A DNA stretch of 52,658 nt from an uncultured Clostridia bacterium (GTDB lineage Bacteria; Bacillota; Clostridia; UBA1381). Location of the stretch: positions 1-52,658 of the forward strand of contig CANQQS010000004.1 of the NCBI GenBank assembly GCA_947626045.1, written 5' to 3'. This document shows positions 8,876 through 14,014 of the stretch, in pieces. The notes beneath the pieces are model-generated. The model worked only from the letters and a program-made list of their open reading frames with translations. It searched no databases and was not told the origin of the DNA. The first letter of the stretch is position 1. Every line of letters starts with the position of its first letter. The position numbers and the translations under genes were made by a program.

Positions 8876-9691
8876 ATGGCGGAAAAAATCAAGGAAGCAA
8901 TCTCGGTTCTCACAAAGGACAACACGGGGATTTACGCTGCACAGGCATCTTTTTTCCTTGTAATTTCCGCCATTCCTTTTCTCACGCTTATTTTTTCGGT
9001 CATATCGCTCTTTATCGAGATAGACCCGCAAAGCGTGATACATTCGGTAAGCTCGTTCGCGCCGGCGGAGGTGAGCGGACTTATATCGACCGTCGTGACG
9101 GAGCTTACGGCAAAATCCGCGTCAGTACCGGTAATATCGGTTACGGCTGTGTCGTCGCTGTGGCTCGCGTCGCGCGGTATAACGGCGCTTTACGCCGGAC
9201 TTAACCATATAAACGGCACGCCGAAGAGAGGCTACATTCGGGCGCGGCTCGTTTCGCTGCTGTACACCGCCGCATTTATCGCCGCGCTTGTTCTGACGCT
9301 TATATTTATAGGCTTCGGCGGTATGCTCGAGGAATTTCTCGCTCGCCGATTTGTAGGACTGGCGTCATTTATAAATTTTATTTTCAAGGGCAAAATACTT
9401 ATATTTTTCCTTTATCTGACGCTTATTTTCGCGCTGTTTTACAAATTCCTGCCGGAGGAAAGACCGAGCTTCCGCTCCGTTCTTCCCGGCGCGGCTCTCG
9501 CGGCGGCGGGCTGGCTCGGGTTTTCGTTCTTTTATTCGCTCTATATCGACAACTTCGCCGATTACACTCTCGTTTACGGCTCGCTTGCCGCGGTTGTTCT
9601 GCTCATGCTGTGGCTGTATTTCTGTATGAACATATTTCTTTTCGGCGCGCAGCTGAATAAACTTGTAAAAAACGGGTTTTTTGAAAAATAA
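8876..9691 (+). CDS. YihY/BrkB-family inner membrane protein
   Basis: AAQASFFLVISAIPFLTLIFSVISL, multiple TM segments, WLGFSFFYSLYIDNFADYTLVYGSLAAVVLLMLWLYFCMNIFLFGAQLN. Confidence 0.9.
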   Translation: MAEKIKEAISVLTKDNTGIYAAQASFFLVISAIPFLTLIFSVISLFIEIDPQSVIHSVSSFAPAEVSGLISTVVTELTAKSASVPVISVTAVSSLWLASRGITALYAGLNHINGTPKRGYIRARLVSLLYTAAFIAALVLTLIFIGFGGMLEEFLARRFVGLASFINFIFKGKILIFFLYLTLIFALFYKFLPEERPSFRSVLPGAALAAAGWLGFSFFYSLYIDNFADYTLVYGSLAAVVLLMLWLYFCMNIFLFGAQLNKLVKNGFFEK

Positions 9692-9764
9692 TACTATACT
9701 ATTTGAAAAAACTGTGTTATAATTGAGATGTGAAAAGACGCGCGCATCAAAGGAGGGGTAAGAA

Positions 9765-10367
9765 ATGGCATTCGATGTTATTGTTTTCAGTCAAAGTGAG
9801 CTTGACGACGCCTTAATGCGCGGCATAACGCGTATTGCCCTTTGCGACAACAGCTTTACCCTTCCCGATATAAGCGGCATAGAATACACTCTTATAGGCA
9901 GCGCGGAAATCGTTTCGGCAAAAAATGAAAACGAGGACAAGCCTCCCGTTTACGCGAATGTTGAGAGAAAAACGCTCTCTTGCGCGTCGTCCTACGGCTC
10001 TTTCGCGTCGTCCTACGGCGGCTCGTACGCTTCAGGCTCGGGCGGCTCGTACTCCTACGGCTATAAATACGAATACGGCGGCTCTTTTGCGGGTTCGTAC
10101 TCGTCATCGTTTATGTCGTCGTACGCGTCACTTTACGCGTCGTCGTTTTACTCGTTTATAAGCGGCATGTCGTTTGAATGGCTCGCAAGCTACGGCGGCA
10201 GTTACGGCTTCGCGTACAGCTTTTCTTACGGCGGCAGCTACAATTTCGGCTACAGCTTCGCATACGGCGGAAGCTTCGGCGGAAGCGGCGCGGCGCTTCC
10301 CGATATTATAGAATACGGCGGTTCGGGTATAATTTTTGTGAACGGATACGGAATAAACTTGATCTGA
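9765..10367 (+). CDS. Gly/Ser/Tyr/Phe-rich low-complexity repeat protein of unknown function
   Basis: Strong SD AAAGGAGGGG; about 70-aa non-repetitive N-terminal domain, then SSYGSFASSYGGSYASGSGGSYSYGYKYEYGGSF...SYGGSYGFAYSFSYGGSYNFGYSFAYGGSFGGSG; no evident signal peptide. Confidence 0.85.
   Translation: MAFDVIVFSQSELDDALMRGITRIALCDNSFTLPDISGIEYTLIGSAEIVSAKNENEDKPPVYANVERKTLSCASSYGSFASSYGGSYASGSGGSYSYGYKYEYGGSFAGSYSSSFMSSYASLYASSFYSFISGMSFEWLASYGGSYGFAYSFSYGGSYNFGYSFAYGGSFGGSGAALPDIIEYGGSGIIFVNGYGINLI
10191..10286 (+). repeat. 36-bp coding tandem repeat (2.7 units) in the GSY protein
   Basis: TACGGCGGCAGTTACGGCTTCGCGTACAGCTTTTCT / TACGGCGGCAGCTACAATTTCGGCTACAGCTTCGCA / TACGGCGGAAGCTTCGGCGGAAGC. 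Confidence 0.9.
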
Positions 10368-10414
10368 GAGCTTCCGCGGCGGAGTTCTCGGATATTTTTT
10401 TTGGAGGAACAGCT

Positions 10415-11257
10415 ATGGACGCGATACATGTAAACTGGACAAAACCCTTCGTGAACAAGACGCGCGCGCCGTACGAAACGGAGGATTTTGAAATTTTCAC
10501 AACCGTCCTGTCGGCTCTTACCTGGCGCAAAAAAAACGGCAGAATCACAATGGCAACCGACAGCGCCGGCGCGGAGTATTACGTAAAAAACGGACTTGAC
10601 GTAATATGGGACGGCATGGACGTGTGCCTTGACGATATTGACGTAAACCCCGACGTGTTCTGGGCAGCCGGTAAGCTGTTCGCGCTGCAAAAGCAGACCG
10701 CGCCCGTCGCGATGATTGACACCGATTTTATAGTCTGGGACACGCTCGCGAACTGCGGCGCGGACGCGGAGGTAATTCACTTTGAGGAGCTTGCGCCGCA
10801 TATTTACCCGCCGTTTGAGTATTTTAAGAACACGCACTTCACCTTTGACGATGATTTCGACCGCACCGTTAAAGCGTGCAACACCGCACTGTGCGTCATA
10901 CGCGACGCGGAGCTTTTGAAGTATTATACAGACACGGCGATACGGTTCATGCGCGAAAGCGACGAAAAGGACGACAGGCTCTGCTATATGGTATTTGCGG
11001 AGCAGCGGCTTCTCGCGATATGCGCGAAAAAGCTCGGCAAAACCGTCGCATCGTTTTCCGATATGCCGTCGCTCTTTTCGGGCAAAGACACGCGCTTTAC
11101 CCACACGTGGGGCATGAAGCAGCAGATGCGCGACAACGGCGCGCTGCGGTACGACTTCTGCAAAAGGTGTGCGCGGCGCATAAGCGCGGACTACCCGCGC
11201 ACGGCGGAAATTCTTGCAAAAATCGGCAGTCTTGCGCCGTATTTTGAGGATATGTAA
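10415..11257 (+). CDS. Putative glycosyltransferase-like protein of unknown specificity (DUF6734-like by recall, not searched)
   Basis: SD GGAGGA 6 nt before ATG; AMIDTDFIVWD resembles a GT-A DXD motif; the R-rich upstream extension of the listed ORF overlaps the GSY gene and is rejected. Confidence 0.6.
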   Translation: MDAIHVNWTKPFVNKTRAPYETEDFEIFTTVLSALTWRKKNGRITMATDSAGAEYYVKNGLDVIWDGMDVCLDDIDVNPDVFWAAGKLFALQKQTAPVAMIDTDFIVWDTLANCGADAEVIHFEELAPHIYPPFEYFKNTHFTFDDDFDRTVKACNTALCVIRDAELLKYYTDTAIRFMRESDEKDDRLCYMVFAEQRLLAICAKKLGKTVASFSDMPSLFSGKDTRFTHTWGMKQQMRDNGALRYDFCKRCARRISADYPRTAEILAKIGSLAPYFEDM

Positions 11258-11386: not shown

Positions 11387-14014
11387 ATGGCACACAAGTA
11401 TGTATACCTTTTCTCGGAGGGTAATGCAAACATGAGAGAGCTTCTCGGCGGTAAGGGCGCTAACCTTGCCGAGATGACAAACCTCGGACTGCCCGTTCCG
11501 CAGGGCTTCACAATCTCAACCGAAGCCTGCACGCAGTATTACGAGGACGGCAGACAGATCAACGACGAAATTCAATCACAAATCAACGAGTACATTGTAA
11601 AAATGGAGGGTATCACCGGCAAGAAGTTCGGCGACCCCGAAAATCCGCTGCTCGTTTCCGTACGCTCGGGCGCGAGAGCGTCAATGCCGGGCATGATGGA
11701 CACAATCCTTAACCTCGGTATCAACGAGACCGTTGTCGATTACATGGCTAAGGCTTCGCAGAATCCCCGCTGGGCATGGGACTGCTACAGAAGATTTATC
11801 CAGATGTACAGCGACGTTGTTATGGAGGTCGGCAAGAAGTATTTTGAAGAGCTTATCGACAAGATGAAGGCTGAGAAGGGCGTTAAGCAGGACGTTGAGC
11901 TTACGGCAGACGACCTTAAGGAGCTTGCTTCGCAGTTTAAGGCTGAGTACAAGAAGGTTATCGGCAAGGACTTCCCGACAGACCCGAAGGAGCAGCTTAT
12001 GGGCGCTATCAAGGCTGTATTCCGTTCATGGGACAACCCCAGAGCGAACGTTTACAGACGCGATAACGACATTCCCTATTCATGGGGTACAGCCGTAAAC
12101 GTACAGATGATGGCGTTCGGTAACATGGGCGACGACTGCGGCACGGGCGTTGCGTTCACGCGCGATCCGGCTACCGGTGAAAAGCACCTCATGGGCGAGT
12201 TTTTGACAAACGCTCAGGGTGAGGACGTTGTTGCGGGCGTACGTACGCCGATGCCTATAGCCGAGATGGAACAGAAGTTCCCCGAAGCGTTCGCGCAGTT
12301 CAAGACTGTTTGTCAGACGCTTGAAGATCATTACAGAGATATGCAGGATATGGAGTTCACCGTTGAGCACGGCAAGCTCTATATGCTTCAGACAAGAAAC
12401 GGTAAGAGAACGGCGCAGGCCGCGCTTAAAATCGCTTGCGATCTCGTTGACGAGGGCATGAGAACCGAGGAAGAAGCGGTTGCTATGATAGATCCGCGTA
12501 ACCTCGACACGCTGCTTCACCCGCAGTTTGACGCTGCCGCTTTGAAGGCTGCAACGCCGATGGGCAAGGCTCTGGGCGCATCGCCGGGCGCTGCCGCGGG
12601 TAAGATAGTATTCACGGCTGACGACGCTAAGGAGTGGGCTGCGAGAGGCGAAAAGGTCGTACTCGTTCGTCTTGAAACATCGCCGGAGGACATCGAAGGC
12701 ATGAAGGCTGCTCAGGGTATACTGACCGTTCGCGGCGGTATGACTTCGCACGCTGCCGTTGTTGCGCGCGGTATGGGTACGTGCTGCGTATCGGGCTGCG
12801 GCGACATCGCTATGGATGAGGCTAACAAGAAGTTCACGCTTAACGGCAAGGAATATCACGAGGGCGACACTCTGTCGCTCGACGGTTCGACAGGTAATAT
12901 TTACGACGGAATTATCCCGACGGTCGACGCTTCGATCGCGGGCGAGTTCGGCAGGATCATGGGCTGGGCTGACAAGTTCAGAACATTGAAGGTTCGCACG
13001 AACGCCGACACGCCGGCTGACGCTAAGAAGGCGAGAGAGCTCGGCGCTGAGGGTATCGGTCTTTGCCGTACGGAGCATATGTTCTTCGAGGGCAACAGAA
13101 TCGACGCGTTCAGAGAGATGATCTGCGCGGATACGGTTGAGGAGAGAGAGGCTGCTCTCGATAAGATTTTACCGATGCAGCAGGGCGACTTTGAGAAGCT
13201 TTACGAGGCTCTTGAGGGTAACCCCGTAACTATCCGTTTCCTCGATCCGCCGCTTCATGAGTTCGTTCCGACAGAAGAGGCTGACATTGAGATCCTCGCT
13301 AAGTCGCAGGGCAAGAGCGTTGAGGCTATCAAGGACCTTATCGCGGGTCTCCACGAGGCTAACCCGATGATGGGTCACAGAGGCTGCCGTCTTGACGTAA
13401 CGTATCCGGAAATCGCGAAGATGCAGACAAAGGCTGTTATCCGCGCGGCTATAAACGTTCAGAAGGCTCATCCGGAATGGACGATAGTTCCCGAGATCAT
13501 GATCCCGCTCGTATGCGAGGTCAAGGAATTGAAGTACGTTAAGAAGATAGTCGTTGAGACAGCCGACGCCGAGATCGTGGCTGCGGGCGCTGATCTCAAG
13601 TATGAAGTAGGTACGATGATCGAGATTCCGCGCGCAGCTCTTACGGCTGACGAAATCGCGACCGAGGCTGACTTCTTCTGCTTCGGCACGAATGACCTCA
13701 CGCAGATGACGTTCGGCTTCTCGCGCGACGACGCGGGCAAGTTCCTCGACGCTTACTACGACGCTAAGATTTTCGAGAACGATCCGTTCGCGAAGCTCGA
13801 CCAGACGGGCGTAGGCAAGCTGATGGAAATGGCTATCAAGCTTGGCAAGCCGGTCAATCCGAATCTTCACGTAGGTATCTGCGGCGAGCACGGCGGCGAT
13901 CCTTCGTCGGTTGAGTTCTGCCACAAGATCGGTCTTAACTACGTATCCTGCTCACCGTTCAGAGTTCCTATCGCGAGACTCGCTGCGGCGCAGGCTAAGA
14001 TCAACGAAAAATAA
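11387..14014 (+). CDS. ppdK: Pyruvate, phosphate dikinase
   Basis: KYVYLFSEGNANMRELLGGKGANLAEMTNLGLPVPQGFTI; GGMTSHAAVVARGMGTCCVSG; GLCRTEHMF. Confidence 0.98.
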   Translation: MAHKYVYLFSEGNANMRELLGGKGANLAEMTNLGLPVPQGFTISTEACTQYYEDGRQINDEIQSQINEYIVKMEGITGKKFGDPENPLLVSVRSGARASMPGMMDTILNLGINETVVDYMAKASQNPRWAWDCYRRFIQMYSDVVMEVGKKYFEELIDKMKAEKGVKQDVELTADDLKELASQFKAEYKKVIGKDFPTDPKEQLMGAIKAVFRSWDNPRANVYRRDNDIPYSWGTAVNVQMMAFGNMGDDCGTGVAFTRDPATGEKHLMGEFLTNAQGEDVVAGVRTPMPIAEMEQKFPEAFAQFKTVCQTLEDHYRDMQDMEFTVEHGKLYMLQTRNGKRTAQAALKIACDLVDEGMRTEEEAVAMIDPRNLDTLLHPQFDAAALKAATPMGKALGASPGAAAGKIVFTADDAKEWAARGEKVVLVRLETSPEDIEGMKAAQGILTVRGGMTSHAAVVARGMGTCCVSGCGDIAMDEANKKFTLNGKEYHEGDTLSLDGSTGNIYDGIIPTVDASIAGEFGRIMGWADKFRTLKVRTNADTPADAKKARELGAEGIGLCRTEHMFFEGNRIDAFREMICADTVEEREAALDKILPMQQGDFEKLYEALEGNPVTIRFLDPPLHEFVPTEEADIEILAKSQGKSVEAIKDLIAGLHEANPMMGHRGCRLDVTYPEIAKMQTKAVIRAAINVQKAHPEWTIVPEIMIPLVCEVKELKYVKKIVVETADAEIVAAGADLKYEVGTMIEIPRAALTADEIATEADFFCFGTNDLTQMTFGFSRDDAGKFLDAYYDAKIFENDPFAKLDQTGVGKLMEMAIKLGKPVNPNLHVGICGEHGGDPSSVEFCHKIGLNYVSCSPFRVPIARLAAAQAKINEK

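Follow-up and report, generated by a model that had tools for sequence, protein, structure and literature searches.

A variable protein with an invariant C-terminal tail and its DUF6734 glycosyltransferase-like partner form a candidate undescribed two-gene system in Clostridia

The window analysed here, a 52,658-nucleotide stretch of DNA from an uncultured Clostridia bacterium, contains a two-gene locus whose features all lie on the forward (+) strand. ORF1 (9765..10367) encodes a 200-aa tail protein composed of an N-terminal domain, a Gly/Ser/Tyr/Phe tract and the C-terminal sequence GYGINLI. Its ribosome-binding site, AAGGAGGGG, occupies 9750-9758, and an extended -10 box (TGtTATAAT, 9715-9723) was recognised 5′ of the gene by eye, being absent from the promoter scan list. 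ORF2 (10415..11257) follows with its own ribosome-binding site (GGAGGA, 10403-10408) and encodes a 280-aa member of DUF6734 (PF20508), a predicted GT-A glycosyltransferase on the combined evidence of Pfam, AF2 and Foldseek. Both reading frames had been proposed in a first-pass annotation, one with a strong Shine-Dalgarno sequence and the other with an AMIDTDFIVWD motif, and both are confirmed at these positions; the 48-bp gap given there measures 47 bp. Between the genes lies a terminator-like 13-pair hairpin with a T run after it (10362..10393).

Family searches assigned the gene 5′ of ORF1 (8876-9691) to BrkB/YihY-type membrane proteins. Such a gene stands directly 5′ of the tail gene in most loci with a type-A N-terminal domain, the type found in the window, including two in which DUF6734 is not adjacent (L153, L160), and was not seen there in types B and C. 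Because of this position it may share the tail gene's transcription unit in the window's family. The gene 3′ of ORF2 (11387-14014) is, judged from its sequence alone, presumably a pyruvate phosphate dikinase gene.

ORF1 matched nothing in Pfam, NCBIfam, PADLOC or PHROGs, and no signal peptide or wall anchor was apparent when the sequences were read by eye. Its type-A N-terminal domain (residues 1-52; 9765..9920), delimited by the A2/A4 alignments and an AF2 block with pLDDT 74-79, is predicted to consist of beta strands and one helix. The low-complexity tract (residues 71-178; 9975..10298) is predicted by AF2 to be disordered, and 95 of its 108 residues are Ser (32), Gly (22), Tyr (19), Phe (11) or Ala (11). 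The tail with its stop codon (10344..10367) completes the protein.

Codon and substitution analyses revealed that the tract is maintained as a protein. Serine is encoded by all six of its codons and the longest exact DNA repeat spans 16 bp, which places maintenance of the repeat at the protein rather than the DNA level. In pairwise comparisons within a set made up of the window and four close relatives (partner identity 91-94%), dN/dS was 0.05-0.15 for the tract, 0.07-0.43 for the N-domain and 0.08-0.14 for ORF2, so that purifying selection on the tract is no laxer than on either of the others, even as tract length differs between relatives by short blocks. The low values in both frames indicate that ORF1 and ORF2 are genuine genes. 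A DNA microsatellite artefact was rejected on the mixed serine codons, the lack of exact repeats above 16 bp and dN/dS values well below 1.

Comparison across relatives identified the tail, a feature absent from the first-pass description, as the sole part of ORF1 that is invariant in the family. Across about 65 distinct tail proteins the last seven residues follow the consensus GYG[ILVM][NHDE][LI][IV]-stop; this collection was selected for G-Y-G, and the loci anchored on ORF2 give the same result without that requirement. The Tyr and both flanking Gly residues occur in every tail protein found through the DUF6734 anchor, tract-less ones included. In G812, a genome from outside the class, a gene for a 350-aa protein ending in SGSGFGGYGLELI-DAR stands directly 5′ of DUF6734. 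A covariation comparison of tail position -3 with DUF6734 columns comprised only seven independent pairs, and among the columns listed none agreed in more than about three. Besides the tail, ORF1-type proteins have little in common. The proteins make up an unannotated family for which no model exists. Standard tools miss it because all that its members share is a seven-residue C-terminus and their low-complexity composition.

The N-terminal domain, by comparison, is exchangeable, with at least four types swapped freely between members. Type A carries VFSQxELDxAL..LCDNxFxLP..YxxIG, type B carries LWxxGKKI..NFDI..GYFxGGxLxxWL, and type C carries MKLLLMFFNERCYTYLL..GGRRSRPVG with (SG)n after it; genome G183 has a fourth type, and short tail proteins of 60-80 aa are found in Clostridium and others. 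In the window's family, a profile search recovered type A in 40 of 70 genomes, the weakest of the 40 probably by chance. Mapped onto the DUF6734 tree, the N-domain types require 8 changes, one more than the minimum of 7, which assigns each DUF6734 clade its own N-domain, with the tail constant throughout.

The same modules also occur elsewhere. In two genomes (G023, G027) domains B then A are fused at the N-terminus of larger proteins adjoining an AAA ATPase gene, a third (G009) encodes a B+A fusion protein too, and G812 joins B, A and tail in one protein; these likenesses were recognised by eye and, for A, also by profile. Since both domains occur fused in this way, tail proteins seem to have borrowed pre-existing modules, to which tract and tail were added. 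Fused type-B then type-A N-terminal domain proteins lie at L190:1111-4015, L191:1142-2716 and L192:1093-1779; the L190 and L191 genes adjoin a Cdc48/FtsH-like AAA ATPase gene, and L190 has two near-identical N-terminal copies in tandem. The B+A fusions beside an AAA ATPase look like another system sharing these modules.

The tract, too, varies in form: [ST]S[YF]x tetrads, GSFxx pentads, pure (SG)n or almost none. The exact pattern of tetrads and hexads described in the first-pass annotation is specific to the window's species group, others having pentads or (SG)n. That annotation's treatment of a hydroxyl- and aromatic-rich tract as the defining feature does not hold for the family, because Clostridium members are almost tract-less and in one family the tract is pure (SG)n and lacks aromatics. 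What recurs is serine, found near the tail in every member read. Many tracts also contain a YEYEYE/WEWEWE block in mid-tract, an alternation of aromatic residues and Glu (YEYEYEYEF, WQWEWEWRY, HEYEYEYEY) conserved even in 60-aa members (for example L118:1841-2023, L179, L074 and L064).

Low-complexity sequence of this kind might serve a structural purpose, the G/S-Y/F tract self-assembling in a FUS-like manner or as an aromatic ladder, with DUF6734 merely tuning the assembly. Successive S-[YF] units are spaced mostly by 4 or 5 residues (229 and 115 spacings), GSF, GSY, SSF and SSY are the commonest units, and the tract has a (G/S)-(Y/F) sticker-spacer composition, all in keeping with such a role. 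However, AF2 returned no ordered repeat for ORF1, its model of the tract being uninformative, and the absence of aromatics from the (SG)n family and the near absence of a tract from Clostridium argue that assembly is not the common function. We regard this reading as quite improbable.

Turning to the partner, ORF2 matches PF20508 nearly over its full length (residues 3-261 on profile positions 3-277 of 286) at 63.1 bits against a cut-off of 27 (E 3.6e-17); Pfam gives the family no function. The AF2 model, built on 56 homologues, reached pLDDT 95.8 and pTM 0.91, and all PDB matches listed by Foldseek were glycosyltransferases, mostly GT-A enzymes of GT8/GT24 (best E 1.7e-5). Among these matches the closest solved folds are YeGT, glycogenin, the UGGT catalytic domain, B3GalT5 and alpha-1,3-galactosyltransferase. 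A GT-A-like partner, as first suggested from its DxD motif, is thus borne out by the predicted fold. TM-scores are 0.40-0.50 for most of the listed matches and mostly 0.35-0.50 for these closest folds, so that the fold does not disclose donor, acceptor or stereochemistry.

Likely active-site residues are strictly conserved. The DxD motif D102-T-D104 (10718..10726), situated between strands 98-101 and 105-107, is invariant in the 56 homologues, as is H230 (11102..11104), a candidate C-terminal metal-binding His in an HxWGxK context whose W, G and K residues are likewise invariant. According to a survey of GT-A enzymes, DxD, xED, G-loop and C-His are core positions of the active site, the C-His coordinating metal in the GT8 enzyme LgtC (PMC7185993). 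By its order in the predicted fold H230 would be the equivalent of this C-His, and an invariant AEQR, if it stands for xED, would fit a retaining enzyme. Fold, DxD and C-terminal His therefore place ORF2 alongside GT-A enzymes near GT8/GT24 (glycogenin, UGGT, LgtC), whereas its sequence sets it apart: a profile search against PDB sequences up to E 10 returned no GT8 and no significant solved relative, Pfam at E up to 1 returned PF20508 alone and no GT family, and ORF2 does not belong to GT8 (CAZy) at the sequence level.

The likeness to glycogenin, a self-glucosylating enzyme, invites an account in which DUF6734 glycosylates the Tyr of the Gly-Tyr-Gly tail and ORF1 primes an intracellular glycan, its N-domain and tract setting the location. 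Retention of this Tyr and both Gly residues in all DUF6734-anchored tail proteins, even without a tract, is consistent with priming. On the other hand, Foldseek likeness holds at the GT-A level only, several other enzymes scoring alike; the flanks contain no conserved glycan synthase gene; and the Tyr may be kept for binding. We consider priming unlikely.

To assess the pairing, we collected 55 loci through ORF2 similarity alone. A tail ORF lies directly 5′ of DUF6734 in 39 and one gene away in 1, with other genes 5′ in the remaining 15. The first-pass annotation let its proposal stand or fall on three points, among them conserved adjacency and a GT-A-like partner fold. Both of these are borne out, adjacency being observed in 39 of 55 loci, with genome-wide pairing even where the genes are unlinked. 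In our class sample, DUF6734 was present in 20 of 390 genomes, each of which also encodes a tail protein. A strict tail DNA pattern, which like all our tail-pattern searches demands G-Y-G by design, matched 16 of the 20 DUF6734-positive against 2 of the 370 negative genomes (Fisher 7e-23, a value that, like the other co-occurrence p-value of 1e-13, ignores relatedness, is thereby inflated and is descriptive only). In the remaining four positives, recognised on reading, the tail has Glu at position -3. Neither match in the negative genomes is a tract protein, one lying in a frame of fewer than 25 aa and the other being without a tract.

Within the window's family the 70 genomes divide into 39 with both genes, 26 with neither and 5 that are discordant. 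Most genomes sampled are MAGs, and the five discordant ones are all MAGs at most 87% complete, one of which (G048) has a sub-threshold DUF6734 adjoining its tail gene; incompleteness may account for all discordances. In the 26 family genomes with a completeness of 90% or more, the two genes are present or absent together without exception (18 both, 8 neither). Copy number is usually one tail gene and one DUF6734 per genome.

The pair is kept even when the genes are apart. In genus g9 they lie on different contigs, the tail gene adjoining what we take from sequence to be a U32-peptidase gene and DUF6734 following a presumed O-methyltransferase gene; G005 is a second unlinked case. Across the g9 loci L117-L121 the tail gene is directly 5′ of the U32-peptidase-like gene, which it abuts or overlaps in L118 and L121. 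Since pairing persists on separate contigs, we argue for a functional tie beyond synteny. The flanks contain no third gene consistent across DUF6734 clades; neighbours vary from clade to clade and seem to be unrelated housekeeping genes.

These unlinked genomes also disfavour nascent-chain arrest, by which the C-terminal peptide would stall the ribosome and regulate DUF6734 translation. The conserved peptide does abut its stop codon, usually -4 to about 60 nt before DUF6734, yet it is equally conserved with DUF6734 on another contig, and a terminator-like hairpin separates the genes in some loci. Such a mechanism is highly improbable.

Co-occurrence is symmetric: it marks a link, not an enzyme-substrate direction. 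The tail protein might accordingly anchor, activate or localise DUF6734, the sugar target being elsewhere (a surface polymer or another protein). N-domains that vary like targeting modules and a tail as constant as a binding motif would also suit such a partner, but a Ser-rich tract under purifying selection is more acceptor-like than a folded adaptor, and the putative attenuator suggests that ORF1 exceeds the enzyme. We judge this role rather unlikely. The attenuator in question is the intergenic hairpin, which is probably a site of partial termination yielding more ORF1 than ORF2 transcript. Comparable hairpins with a T run occur in L032-L034 and L043, and in L035 and L040 with a different stem sequence; at other loci the tail gene and DUF6734 overlap by 4 bp or sit close.

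Outside the class DUF6734 is rare. A phylum sample contained it in 4 of 399 genomes, of which two belong to the class; of the other two, G812 has the 350-aa protein described above and G748 has no tail protein. In the samples searched, the tail-linked DUF6734 clade hardly extends beyond the class. Another locus from outside the class (L180) has a DUF6734 scoring 204 bits, 3′ of a gene for a 489-aa protein, with no tail protein beside it; a large protein near this DUF6734 is, we presume, DUF4157-like in appearance. Viral contigs L182-L189 carry a distant DUF6734 relative (26-29% identity) beside structural or terminase-like genes, and no tail protein stands beside it in the three loci read (L182, L184, L187). 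A phage or plasmid origin of the pair was rejected, annotated phage and plasmid collections giving no match and IMG/VR only these 26-29% enzyme relatives, and a defence system was rejected for want of a PADLOC match.

Known systems offer partial parallels. For serine-rich repeat glycoproteins of the accessory Sec pathway, GtfA/GtfB provide a cytosolic glycosyltransferase that is dedicated to a single Ser-rich protein of low complexity, an arrangement like the one proposed here. ORF1 differs in ending GYGIxLI; no signal peptide or wall anchor is visible in it by eye, and no secA2/secY2 or GtfA/GtfB gene was noticed in the flanks inspected. RiPP precursors and glycocins share the order of a small gene followed by a modifying-enzyme gene, and short Clostridium members resemble precursor peptides; however, RiPP precursors combine a conserved leader with a variable core, whereas ORF1 is the reverse, with an invariant C-terminus and several N-terminal types. 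No RiPP maturation peptidase or transporter is conserved in the pair's flanks. As for pentapeptide repeats (PF01469), the GSFNx pentads of L074's type-B tract score above the Pentapeptide_2 cut-off (33.8 against 26.4), whereas the window's ORF1 is unmatched and other tracts repeat every four residues or as (SG)n; with L074 alone passing among the members scanned, this repeat was rejected as a general explanation. Our literature search found no paper on DUF6734/PF20508 and nothing on point for the general idea of such a pair; with no family model for the repeat protein, the original suggestion of a candidate undescribed two-gene system stands.

We favour the interpretation, at a probability of roughly 0.5, that ORF1 is the dedicated intracellular substrate of the GT-A enzyme DUF6734, docked or modified at its tail and glycosylated on tract hydroxyls and/or Tyr. 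ORF1 would act as a substrate or scaffold, combining an exchangeable N-terminal module, a flexible Ser-rich tract (mostly Gly/Ser/aromatic) and the recognition tail GYG[IL]xLI. DUF6734 would be a nucleotide-sugar glycosyltransferase, probably metal-dependent and retaining, that acts on ORF1 in the cytosol, docking on or modifying the tail, and that glycosylates tract hydroxyls (Ser, often Tyr) and/or the invariant tail Tyr. As the sole universal substrate feature, the tail is the natural docking or acceptor site; with Clostridium members and G812 almost tract-less, the tract is not a universal acceptor. In the window's genus, the intergenic attenuator would hold substrate in excess of enzyme. 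The analysis establishes the gene structure, the family, the predicted fold and its catalytic motifs, the constancy of the tail, a near 1:1 co-occurrence across genomes and purifying selection on the tract; sugar transfer, ORF1 as its acceptor, docking at the tail, the acceptor residue, the cytosolic location and attenuation are inferred.

A broader proposal, for now a long shot, is that GYG[IL]xLI is a C-terminal tag on interchangeable modules. In each genome it would single out one intracellular protein, to be glycosylated by a GT-A enzyme of its own, perhaps at the tag Tyr. The product could be a tag-directed intracellular glycoprotein or a primed glycan, and the pair a bacterial equivalent of glycan synthesis primed on a protein.

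Collectively, one tail protein with one matching glycosyltransferase-like enzyme in many gut Clostridia suggests an undescribed, self-contained protein-sugar-tagging pair, and supplies a function hypothesis for a Pfam family that has none assigned. It also adds a bacterial example of a conserved low-complexity domain of the (G/S)(Y/F) kind, one that may come with its own modifier. If DUF6734 does read a short portable tail and glycosylate its carrier, protein engineering would gain a compact tool, and tag-directed glycosylation in gut Clostridia would rest on a simple system of two genes.
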